This document shows, in pieces, positions 2,447 to 36,037 of a stretch of DNA of 36,168 nucleotides. The stretch comes from Eubacteriales bacterium (GTDB lineage Bacteria; Bacillota; Clostridia; Christensenellales; UMGS416): contig JAQUVY010000013.1 in NCBI GenBank assembly GCA_028693155.1, positions 1 to 36,168 of the forward strand, written 5' to 3'. Position 1 is the stretch's first letter. Every line of letters begins with the position of its first letter. The notes under the pieces are model-generated. The model saw nothing but the letters and a program-made list of their open reading frames with translations. It made no database searches and was not told where the DNA came from. Both the position numbers and the translations under genes were made by a program.

Positions 2447-3574
2447 ATGAAGGGATTGTATGTGCACATCCCCTTTTGCGGGAGCAAGTGCCTGTATTGT
2501 GATTTTGCGTCCTATCCCCGGCGAGAGGCGGATATGCCCGGGTATGTGGACGCGGTGCTGCGCGAGGCGGAAATGCGCCGGGCGCAGTGGGGTTCTTTCG
2601 CGCCGGATACGATCTTCTGGGGTGGAGGGACCCCTTCCCTTTTGCCGGTGAAGGAGTTTGTCCGGTTGACCAAGGGGCTGGGCGAGGTGCTGGATTTGTC
2701 TCGGGTCAGGGAGTTCACGCTGGAGGCCAACCCCGGCACGATAGATGAAGAAAAGCTGGCCGCTTATGCTGCCTGCGGGGTGGATCGGATGTCGTTGGGT
2801 TTGCAGGCGGCGCAGCCCGCGCTGCTCAAGGCGATCGGCCGGCGGCACTCACCGGAGGATTTTGCCCGGTCGGTGGTGCTGATCCGCGCGGCGGGGATCC
2901 GCCGGGTGAACGGGGATATGATGACCGGCCTGCCCGGGCAAACGGTGGCGCAGGCTCGGGAGACGGCACGCTTTTTGACGGATGCCGGGGTCAGTCATGT
3001 GTCCTGCTATGCTCTTAAGGTGGAGGAAGGCACGCCGCTGTACGGCCTGCGCGAAGCGGGAAAGGTACAGGTGCCCGATGATGATGCCGAGCGCGACATG
3101 TTTCACGCCGCCCGTGAGGTGCTGGAAAGCGCGGGGTATGCGCGCTATGAGATCTCCAACTTCGCCTTGCCCGGTGAAGAATGCCTGCACAATCTTTTGT
3201 ATTGGCGCAGGGGGCAATATTGGGGGCTGGGCTGCGCGGCGGCGTCCTTCTGGGGAGCGGAGCGCGCCACCAATGTTGCGGAGATCGACGAATACAAAAC
3301 GTTTATTGATGAGAATAAATTGCCAATTGCGGGGAAAGAGGAGCTAACGCCCGAGGATGCTGCCTTTGAGGAAATTATGCTGGGCCTTCGCCTGACCCGG
3401 GGGGTGGACTGCCCGGGCTTCGCTCTGCGGCACGGGTGGGATCTCCGCGAGCGCTACCGGGAGACCATCGAAGGGCTGAAGGCGCAGGGCTTAATACTTC
3501 AAGAGGGGGATCGTCTGCGCTTGACGCGGCTGGGGATGGATGTTCAGAACCACGTGCTGCTGGAGTTTATGTAG
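2447..3574 (+). CDS. hemW: Radical SAM haem chaperone HemW (oxygen-independent coproporphyrinogen III oxidase-like)
   Basis: 375 residues. The radical SAM motif CxxxCxxC is Cys11, Cys15 and Cys18 (HIPFCGSKCLYCDF), followed by WGGGTPSLL and the LGLQAAQPALLKAIGRRH stretch typical of the HemN/HemW family. HemW proteins insert haem into respiratory enzymes, while true HemN decarboxylates coproporphyrinogen III. The first cysteine motif lacks the fourth cysteine that HemN has (CxxxCxxCxC), and the position just after lepA is the usual HemW context, so HemW is the better call. The start lies 1 nt after the lepA stop with no strong ribosome binding site, which suggests translational coupling. Confidence 0.93.
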   Translation: MKGLYVHIPFCGSKCLYCDFASYPRREADMPGYVDAVLREAEMRRAQWGSFAPDTIFWGGGTPSLLPVKEFVRLTKGLGEVLDLSRVREFTLEANPGTIDEEKLAAYAACGVDRMSLGLQAAQPALLKAIGRRHSPEDFARSVVLIRAAGIRRVNGDMMTGLPGQTVAQARETARFLTDAGVSHVSCYALKVEEGTPLYGLREAGKVQVPDDDAERDMFHAAREVLESAGYARYEISNFALPGEECLHNLLYWRRGQYWGLGCAAASFWGAERATNVAEIDEYKTFIDENKLPIAGKEELTPEDAAFEEIMLGLRLTRGVDCPGFALRHGWDLRERYRETIEGLKAQGLILQEGDRLRLTRLGMDVQNHVLLEFM

Positions 3575-3577
3575 GAA

Positions 3578-3600
3578 GCGCCTTGCCAAAGGCAAGGCGC
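3578..3600 (+). terminator. Perfect 10-bp hairpin just after hemW, without a U-tract
   Basis: GCGCCTTGCC, loop AAA, then GGCAAGGCGC, starting 3 nt after the hemW stop. No T-run follows, so it is not a classic intrinsic terminator. It may protect the 3' end of the transcript or belong to the adjoining repeat. Confidence 0.35.
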
Positions 3601-3602
3601 GA

Positions 3603-3782
3603 GGGTAGCTAAGACTTTCTGCTGACGATTATGCCGACAGGAACACCGCAGGTGTTCCGAAAGGCGGCGGCAAGGCGCTTGGGTAGCTAAGAGCTCCTGC
3701 GGACGCTGATGCCGACAGGAACACCGTAGGTGTTCCGAGAGGCGGCGGCGAAACGCGAGGGCAGCTAAGCGCAACTGCTGAC
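3603..3782. repeat. 78-bp tandem repeat, two full copies plus a partial third
   Basis: Copies start at 3603, 3681 and 3759 with GGG(T/C)AGCTAAG. The first two are exactly 78 bp apart and differ at scattered positions; the third matches for only about 24 bp. Each full copy carries a perfect inverted repeat, GGAACACC/GGTGTTCC, around a 3-nt loop: 3640-3658 with loop GCA and 3718-3736 with loop GTA. Because 78 is divisible by three, all frames show a 26-residue periodic translation, but no credible gene is present. It lies between hemW and the ZIP transporter gene. Confidence 0.8.
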
Positions 3783-4051
3783 ATCGCGAAGAACAGATTC
3801 GCCGCGCGTTGTTTGTTTTCGGGAACAATACCCTGAGTGTCAAAGGGGCTTTTCCCCGAAGAAAGGGTCAAGGGGCGACTGCCCCTTGCAGGGGCTCTTC
3901 CCATCCCTTTTCTGCCCCACTCTCATATTGCCGCAGGAGCGGTACTGGTTTCTTGCGGAATTCCTCCTTGCGCTTCGCTGCCGTCCGTTTTTGCTTTGCG
4001 CCCGCATTGCGTCCGATTTTTCACATATAGTGGATGCAGGGGGGCGATGGG
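3783..4051. other. Gene-free spacer with an 8-bp hairpin
   Basis: No convincing coding region or clear promoter was seen. The stretch contains AAAGGGGCTTTTCCCCGAA near 3842 and a perfect 8-bp hairpin CAAGGGGC/GCCCCTTG at 3869-3888 with loop GACT, followed by pyrimidine-rich DNA without a clean T-run. The base composition is less GC-biased than in the neighbouring genes. Together with the 78-bp repeats it forms a 477-bp gene-free interval. Confidence 0.5.
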
Positions 4052-7083: not shown

Positions 7084-8397
7084 ATGAGCACAAAAGTTGT
7101 CAAGTTCGGCGGATCGTCGCTGGCCGACGCCCAGCAGTTCCGCAAGGTCATCGACATCATCCGTGCCGATGAGACTCGGCGGTTTGTGGTGCCCTCGGCG
7201 CCGGGCAAGCGCTTTGCCGGCGACGAAAAGGTGACGGACATGCTGTATGCCTGCCACCGGCAGGCGCAGGCGGGGGAGGACTGCACGGCGGCGCTGGAGA
7301 AGATCCGCGCGCGCTATCAGGAGATCATCGACGAGCTGGGGCTGAGCACCGATCTGACCGGGGAGTTTGACACCATCAGCCAAATGCTGGCCAAGGGTGC
7401 CAACGCCGACTATGCCGCCAGCCGAGGAGAATATCTCAACGGCATCGTGCTGGCCGACGCGCTGGGCTACCCCTTTGTGGACGCGGCCAAGCTGGTGAAG
7501 TTCCAGCAAAACGGCAACCTGGACAACCAGCTGACCTATAATCTGATCAAAAACATCCTGGGTGATATGGGACGGGCGGTGATCCCCGGCTTTTACGGCG
7601 CGCTGCCCGACGGAAAGGTCAAGACCTTTTCCCGCGGGGGCTCGGATATTTCCGGATCGCTGGTGGCCTGGGGCGTGCAGGCCGATCTGTATGAAAACTG
7701 GACGGATGTTTCGGGCGTGCTCATGGCCGACCCGCGCATCGTGAAAAATGCCAAAAAGATCGACGTCATCACCTACATGGAGCTGCGCGAGCTTTCCTAC
7801 ATGGGAGCCACCGTGCTGCATGAGGACGCCATTTTCCCGGTGCGGATGGCCGGCATCCCCATTCATATCAAAAACACCAACCGTCCCCAGGATGTGGGTA
7901 CCCTTATCGTGGCGCAGACCGACGACAGCGACGCCGCCGGGCATATCACCGGCGTGGCCGGGCGCAAGGGCTTTTCCTTCATCAACCTGGAGAAGGACAT
8001 GATGAACAGCGAGATCGGCTTTGGCTATCGGGTGCTGGGCGTGCTGGCCAAGCACGGGGTGTCCTTTGAGCACTTGCCCACCGGCATCGACACGCTGACC
8101 GTGGTGCTGGAATCGGCCTATGTGCAGCCCCTGCGCCATCAGCTCATCGAGGATCTGTGCGCGGCGGTCAATCCCGACTCGGTCGCCATCGAGGACGGCA
8201 TGGCGCTCATTGCCACGGTGGGCCGCGGCATGGTGAAGAACAAGGGCACCGCCGCCCGCATTTTTGAAGCGCTCACCGAGGCGGGCATCAACATTCGCAT
8301 GATCGACCAGGGCTCCAGCGAGATGAACATCATCATCGGCGTGGAGGAAAGCGACTTTGAAAACGCCATTGCGGCGATCTATCAAAAATTTGCATAA
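7084..8397 (+). CDS. Aspartate kinase
   Basis: 437 residues. It phosphorylates aspartate to 4-phospho-aspartate, the first step to lysine/diaminopimelate, threonine and methionine. The amino-acid kinase domain opens with KFGGSSLADA (KFGGSS at 7-12) and includes SRGGSDISGSLVA and YENWTDVSGVLMADPRIV. Two C-terminal ACT domains follow, roughly 290-360 and 375-437 (VATVGRGMVKNKGTAARIF...IDQGSSEMNIIIGV), indicating feedback control by an end-product amino acid. Which one cannot be read from sequence. The start at 7084 has AAGGAG 8 nt upstream. The purL start follows 12 nt after the stop, so the two are probably co-transcribed. No other lysine or threonine genes are nearby. Confidence 0.95.
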   Translation: MSTKVVKFGGSSLADAQQFRKVIDIIRADETRRFVVPSAPGKRFAGDEKVTDMLYACHRQAQAGEDCTAALEKIRARYQEIIDELGLSTDLTGEFDTISQMLAKGANADYAASRGEYLNGIVLADALGYPFVDAAKLVKFQQNGNLDNQLTYNLIKNILGDMGRAVIPGFYGALPDGKVKTFSRGGSDISGSLVAWGVQADLYENWTDVSGVLMADPRIVKNAKKIDVITYMELRELSYMGATVLHEDAIFPVRMAGIPIHIKNTNRPQDVGTLIVAQTDDSDAAGHITGVAGRKGFSFINLEKDMMNSEIGFGYRVLGVLAKHGVSFEHLPTGIDTLTVVLESAYVQPLRHQLIEDLCAAVNPDSVAIEDGMALIATVGRGMVKNKGTAARIFEALTEAGINIRMIDQGSSEMNIIIGVEESDFENAIAAIYQKFA

Positions 8398-35667: not shown

Positions 35668-36002
35668 CGGGTTCACCTCTTTGCACTGCGCACAGCAGAT
35701 GAAAGGTATCATATCATATTTGGTGAAGAATGGGAATGCGCGCAGGGATAGAGCGCCGGCACGAAAACGGCACCCGGAGCGCGAAAATTTCATCTGCCGA
35801 CGGGGCGGGGAGGTGGGGCGAGCGCGCCGTGTCGGGGGTTCGCACAAAACCGCTTACCTGTGCCTGTGGCAGGATCGTTGAATAAAAAGGGGGAAGCTTT
35901 GCGCACGAAAATCGCTTATGTGTGTCCGCAGGACACACTGCGCTTAGGCAGTTGGCTGAAAGGGCAAGCGAGCCTTTCTGCGAAAGGCTCGCTGTAGGTA
36001 AC
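35668..36002. other. Gene-free region with two strong hairpins
   Basis: No convincing gene. The part next to the MATE gene holds ATATGATATGATACC on the minus strand (near 35712), a possible -10 region without a clear -35. Further right are two perfect inverted repeats: GTGTGTCC/GGACACAC with loop GCA (35920-35938) and AGCGAGCCTTTC/GAAAGGCTCGCT with loop TGC (35967-35993). The second shares its inner 9-bp arms with the tRNA terminator that follows. Confidence 0.6.
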
Positions 36003-36037
36003 AAAAAAAGAGCCTTTCATAGAAAGGCTCTTTTTTT
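36003..36037 (-). terminator. Intrinsic terminator of the tRNA unit
   Basis: GAGCCTTTC/GAAAGGCTC with a 3-nt loop, followed by seven T residues on the minus strand just past tRNA-Leu. The plus strand also has a T-run, so it may act both ways. Confidence 0.9.

Follow-up and report, generated by a model that had tools for sequence, protein, structure and literature searches.

Known palindromic repeats and the locus in this genome

The closest described systems are families of short intergenic palindromes, most of them bacterial. In NIMEs (dRS3 and RS repeats), short palindromes and repeats of 30-160 bp form intergenic arrays of 200-2700 bp, as described in PMC3898611. REPs and BIMEs are high-copy intergenic palindromes in composite arrays; the REPs of BIMEs alternate in orientation (PMC2817692), and REPs are reported to be found mostly downstream of coding regions and between genes that are unidirectional or convergent (PMC3733652). 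GTAG REPs and REPINs are recognized by a GTAG/GTGG tag near the hairpin foot and by a RAYT gene that has the repeat on both sides. CGTC REPs, with stems of 8-9 bp and loops of 4-5 bases, are described as palindromes that lack a dedicated transposase (PMC3733652). Mitochondrial hairpin and mobile elements also repeatedly invade intergenic DNA (PMC2800124, PMC4478555). The partial texts consulted contain no recognizable description of the repeat family reported here, a weak negative result.

The stretch analyzed (the window) comprises 36,168 nucleotides of contig C112 from a 2.45-Mb Eubacteriales genome (175 contigs, 93.9% complete). An earlier note, made from the letters of the window, described a 78-bp tandem repeat and took it for a dispersed intergenic element that expands in tandem. 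This interpretation is partly supported. What it overlooked is that the 78-bp unit is one module within a far larger nested mosaic. We consider it probable (roughly 0.7) that the tandem is part of a non-coding mosaic of palindromic modules, intergenic and narrow in distribution, that is similar to NIMEs and BIMEs and behaves as non-autonomous selfish DNA.

As in NIME arrays, intergenic short palindromes are combined with longer modules, and islands lying in the interior of the stretches analyzed (n=33) are 185-1832 bp long. Unlike in NIMEs, the dRS3 motif ATTCCC(N8)GGGAAT occurs 0 times in 45 islands, eight perfect arm sequences are found in the hairpins that head the islands, and modules sit inside hairpin loops. 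Like REPs and BIMEs, the palindromes are numerous, intergenic, and arranged in composite arrays, here enriched between convergent genes; unlike the alternating REPs of BIMEs, the 78-bp units are direct tandems, head to tail. A GTAG/GTGG foot tag was found in 3 of 266 island hairpins and a CGTC tag at 4 of the 266, and no RAYT gene flanked by the repeat of the islands was found. Head hairpins have stems of 10-12 bp and 3-base loops, compared with the shorter stems and longer loops of CGTC REPs. The mitochondrial elements are likened by description, and their hosts are mitochondrial genomes. Overall, the mosaic resembles NIMEs and BIMEs in its working, yet it departs from these families in tags, sequence, and orientation, which argues against membership.

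The tandem array and its island

The strongest tandem array of the window detected by Tandem Repeats Finder lies at 3591-3769 (period 78, 2.3 copies, 84% matches, score 260; the runner-up scores 79), and the two full copies and partial third copy described earlier are thus real. The array starts directly 3' of a hemW-like gene, and its first unit opens with the right arm of a head hairpin. We named the genes adjoining the repeat from their Pfam domains: lepA, a radical SAM gene of the HemN/HemW type, and a ZIP metal transporter. In the same-genus genome G001 the locus stops inside the hemW-like gene, and the locus of this genome is the only one in which the ZIP gene turned up. The features of the island (3571-3950) are as follows:

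3578..3600, + strand: head hairpin GCGCCTTGCC-AAA-GGCAAGGCGC, 23 bases, perfect, 3 bases past the stop codon of the hemW-like gene (3572-3574)
3591..3668, + strand: 78-bp unit 1, consisting of right arm, core GAGGGTAGCTAAGA..CTGCTGACG, then hairpin (Tandem Repeats Finder and copy comparison)
3640..3658, + strand: perfect hairpin of unit 1, GGAACACC-GCA-GGTGTTCC
3669..3746, + strand: 78-bp unit 2, 87% identical to unit 1
3718..3736, + strand: perfect hairpin of unit 2, GGAACACC-GTA-GGTGTTCC
3747..~3782, + strand: partial third copy, with the right arm of a different haplotype (GGCGAAACGC) and the start of the core
3757..3888, + strand: complete core-tail module, from an alignment with 37 further copies (34 from this genome, 3 from locus L053 of another metagenome-assembled genome, or MAG)
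3869..3888, + strand: tail hairpin CAAGGGGC-GACT-GCCCCTTG
3889..3950, + strand: remnant of 3' hairpin modules (..CTCTCATATTGCCGC..GCGGTACTGGTT..) that closes the island, its likeness to other modules judged by eye

The earlier note had assigned each full copy a perfect hairpin with a GCA loop. The stem is indeed perfect in both, and the GCA loop holds for unit 1 but not for unit 2, which has GTA. With 87% identity, the two units are among the more diverged pairs. Folding of the island exceeds that of shuffled sequences (z -4.8), a strength that palindromes alone would yield.

A second hairpin with a GCA loop, GTGTGTCC-GCA-GGACACAC, is present at 35920-35938, as the earlier note stated. Its proposed kinship with the 78-bp unit was rejected: the surrounding 146 bases match only themselves in the genome (E<=0.001), and the two have in common only the hairpin form and a 3-base loop. 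The same end of the window holds a terminator-like inverted repeat flanked by A and T runs, GAGCCTTTC..GAAAGGCTC (36003-36037), and a similar stem with a TGC loop at 35967-35993.

Islands across the genome

With a 200-bp query, the genome yields 61 matches (E<=0.001), or 75 when the cut-off is E<=10, own site counted. The unit is thus not confined to this locus, and the proposed dispersal is confirmed. An 18-mer of the tail has 42 exact copies, 20 forward and 22 reverse, whereas the backwards control has 0. There are dozens of intergenic islands: in the stretches fetched around matches we delimited at least 45, a lower bound, covering 37,835 bases (1.5% of the genome). Predicted genes, called approximately with a simple codon-usage script, cover 1,275 of these bases. 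Perfect hairpins (arm >=8, loop 3-5) number 402 in 183 kb, counted over 39 stretches including the window and with overlapping loop choices included, versus 7 in one shuffled control; their abundance is therefore not due to chance. The dispersal of the islands suggests that they may move as wholes. Two stretches, L041 (start of C15) and L088 (end of C25), have an identical head and identical 12 preceding bases, and may be one place counted or assembled twice.

Islands are enriched between convergent genes. For the 27 with called genes on both sides, these are convergent in 9, divergent in 5, and co-directional in 13. Among the 75 gene pairs of these stretches that have no island between them, the counts are 5, 10, and 60 (Fisher p 0.0015 for the convergent enrichment, 9/27 versus 5/75). 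A called gene lies within 150 bases on the 5' side of 15 of 59 head hairpins. It runs in the same direction for 9 of the 15, with the head starting 0-3 bases past its stop codon in 7, and in the opposite direction for the other 6, 5 of which lie at a distance of over 15 bases. Such a pattern is what would remain if insertions into genes and promoters were selected against.

Module anatomy and nesting

Islands are built from a recurring vocabulary of modules. Heads and 78-bp units were counted, and the anatomy and module order were partly read by eye. Many islands open at the 5' end with a head hairpin of the form (A/G)AGC..., after which comes a core (GAGGGCAGCTAAGA....CTGCTGACG). Three continuations occur: the hairpin of the 78-bp module with a right arm and further core; a second module around ATAGGGC..GCCCTAT and then a new head; or a tail (CGATGAAAGGGTCAAGGG..CCCTTG) followed by more hairpins, including GCCAGTGCCGC..GCGGCACTGG. 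The 3' module boundaries are too variable to fix by eye. Segments of the type GGGTACATAA take the usual place of head and core in L034:676-1701 and L045:338-1753, a second kind of 5' part. A fold-back, in which hairpin modules are followed by an inverted self-copy with the center CACTGCGCAGTG, was seen by eye in L035 at about 7690-7990.

The 78-bp tandem is the first continuation repeated head to tail, i.e., right arm, core, and hairpin. The spacing among 27 plain 78-bp hairpins is 78 in seven cases and 75 in one. Within an array, units share 0.936 identity (9 pairs), compared with 0.822 for other pairs (342 pairs), a difference reached by 0 of 5000 resamplings of the pair values. Arrays thus grow locally, which bears out the tandem expansion that had been proposed. 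The best pair between arrays has 0.987 identity. The solitary right arms that follow 78-bp hairpins belong to the commonest head haplotypes in 19 of 26 cases, so modules have probably recombined between islands.

In one hairpin class, the loop is either short or filled by another module. Short loops number 14 for this hairpin, GGACGTT..GATGCGTCC; 10 clean long copies, 114-115 bases in length, carry about 95 extra bases, another hairpin module, at one and the same loop position. A further four long matches, which start or end at another hairpin, were excluded from this count; a looser pattern gives 16 short and 14 long. The 78-bp hairpin also has seven variants whose left arm and loop are replaced by a longer segment; the matched stretch is 125-127 bases.

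Palindrome arms and loops

The arms of the head hairpins change together. In 39 stretches we counted 59 heads whose arms have no more than one mismatch (67 with at most three), and 54 of the 59 have perfect arms, in eight arm sequences. Ten left-arm sequences were seen, two of which occur only with mismatched right arms, leaving the eight perfect haplotypes. Nearly all heads open with (A/G)AGC. In 45 heads with 10-bp arms (at most three mismatches), 442 of 450 pairs are Watson-Crick, 4 are G-U, and 4 are other. When right arms were shuffled among copies, a generous test given that the haplotypes are related, Watson-Crick pairs averaged 362 and reached a maximum of 391 in 1000 shuffles.

Loops of the heads other than AAA/TTT gave 85 reverse-complement pairs versus 10 reverse and 4 complement, counted as pairs of copies rather than independent events. 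The loops of the 27 plain 78-bp hairpins (23 GCA, 2 GTA, 1 ACC, 1 GAA) include none that are reverse-complementary, and one such pair (GAA, TTC) was found by eye among A1 tail hairpins; loop flipping is thus mainly a feature of heads. Together, the co-changing arms, the few G-U pairs, and the reverse-complement head loops point to copying at the DNA level over compensation of the RNA type. Template switching during replication can create and repair perfect stems, as described in PMC8794818, and it homogenizes arms and inverts spacers, according to PMC8604942. The scarcity of G-U pairs and the flipped loops fit this process. Alternatively, flipped head loops could reflect insertion of heads in both orientations.

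Distribution beyond the genome

The mosaic is narrowly distributed. Across 61 genomes, the 200-bp query matched this genome and, weakly, 34 bases in G028; there was no strong match in the 60 relatives. The tail 18-mer was found in 1 of 297 genomes of the order, and a 1.8-kb island (E<=1e-6) in 1 of 391 of the class, in both cases this genome. At most two candidates per genome were scored in the class-wide search, so diverged relatives could escape it.

Among named genomes, where records of this genome were possibly left out, an exact 22-base pattern was found on a single contig of MAG STD2_26 (labelled Oscillospiraceae), JAQUZL010000014.1. This contig (L053; G297:C110) has many of the modules of the mosaic. 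All 11 of the 11 matches in STD2_26 are on this contig, which may therefore be misbinned and derive from a relative; transfer is also suggested. A 780-aa protein encoded on it has 60% identity to G001 (627 residues) and 36% at best to the genome analyzed here (G000). Among the matches listed between a 6.6-kb stretch of STD2_26 and G000, the repeats are covered and the intervening genes are not. The 1.8-kb island has no match in plasmid and phage collections, and two exact patterns have none in viral contigs, so a phage or plasmid origin was rejected.

Alternative explanations

How such modules move raises several possibilities. The RAYT-type mover suggested in the earlier note is not supported. 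Were these REP/REPIN elements mobilized by a RAYT transposase of the genome itself, the candidate would be its one Y1_Tnp gene (C139:5278-5559; L052:1333-1824; 163 aa, 28.8 bits versus a 23-bit cut-off), and REPs are likewise intergenic, palindromic, and mostly downstream of genes. However, the repeat on both sides of that gene, CCGCTCACATGTG, differs from the island modules and is exact nowhere else (two further places have it with one mismatch). Its contig shares two weak matches with the island-bearing stretches (E 0.003 and 0.009), one of 43 bases with L039 and the other inside the coding part of the window. Considering also the rarity of GTAG/GTGG and CGTC tags, we judge this explanation very unlikely. 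The modules could instead be MITEs of a DNA transposase or of a single-strand-acting (HUH) enzyme for which hairpin tips are preferred targets. The 14 short and 10 filled loops with near-identical junctions are in keeping with this, as is the (A/G)AGC start of nearly all heads, but the only cluster of three or more related genes among the 141 called in the stretches consists of three that encode GFO/IDH/MocA-type oxidoreductases. These ordinary enzymes were rejected as movers, as was a reverse transcriptase, since the search found no RVT_1 domain. MITEs seem to us rather doubtful. Somewhat more plausible, though still tentative, is that modules insert precisely in resident loops, with hairpin tips as insertion sites, and that template switching keeps at least eight diversifying haplotypes perfect, all without a dedicated transposase.

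The copies might also be dispersed RNA genes or regulators, i.e., a structured RNA family whose core-tail modules act in 3' untranslated regions. Strong folding of the window island, the joint change of head arms, and the 7 of 59 heads that start 0-3 bases past a sense stop codon would suit such a role, yet 6 of the 15 gene-adjacent heads follow a gene that points away, and G-U pairs are scarce in the head stems (4/450). A core pseudoknot (1-2-1'-2') that was convincing by eye on few copies was rejected on 38 aligned core-tail copies (35 from this genome, 3 from L053), in which the pseudoknot and tail hairpin were scored: 84.9% of pairs formed versus 85.1% when shuffled, with 4 double changes versus 6.9. 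The pairing did beat versions slid by 1-3 columns (36-45% of cells paired), as expected of a structure drawn from these sequences. Covariation gave no support to the pseudoknot with the tail hairpin, and RNAalifold gave zero double-changed pairs. In Rfam, only a tRNA passed the gathering cut-off in the window, and the 11 hits in eight loci were all below gathering, the best being a 5'-cut CsrC match (E 0.009, L053). On inspection by eye, a hammerhead-like reading of CTGATG..GAAAC was dropped, since unit 1 has no CTGATG. An RNA family is thus unlikely. Least credible of all is an artefact of short-read MAG assembly. The genome is in 175 contigs, 12 of 45 islands lie within 60 bases of the edge of a fetched stretch, and one island contains an N run; against this, 33 islands are interior, and the same modules occur in another MAG, a separate assembly. 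The copy number of any single array is less certain than the existence of the islands.

Proposed mechanism and significance

We favor the reading of the mosaic as non-autonomous selfish DNA. It would spread in this form and be tolerated between genes, above all at convergent genes. Single-stranded DNA at replication may form hairpins, favoring template switching, which in turn would keep arms perfect and flip head loops. The 78-bp tandems could arise by slippage or unequal exchange between cores.

Perhaps the most interesting traits of the mosaic are the co-changing arms and the modules nested in loops. Such islands may break short-read assemblies. More broadly, two questions are open for bacterial palindromic repeats: (i) how palindromes stay perfect despite sequence change and (ii) how they spread without a transposase. 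For both, this genome is a naturally occurring data set: eight perfect arm haplotypes share a single conserved context, G-U intermediates are few, loops come as reverse complements, and hairpin loops are found both empty and filled.
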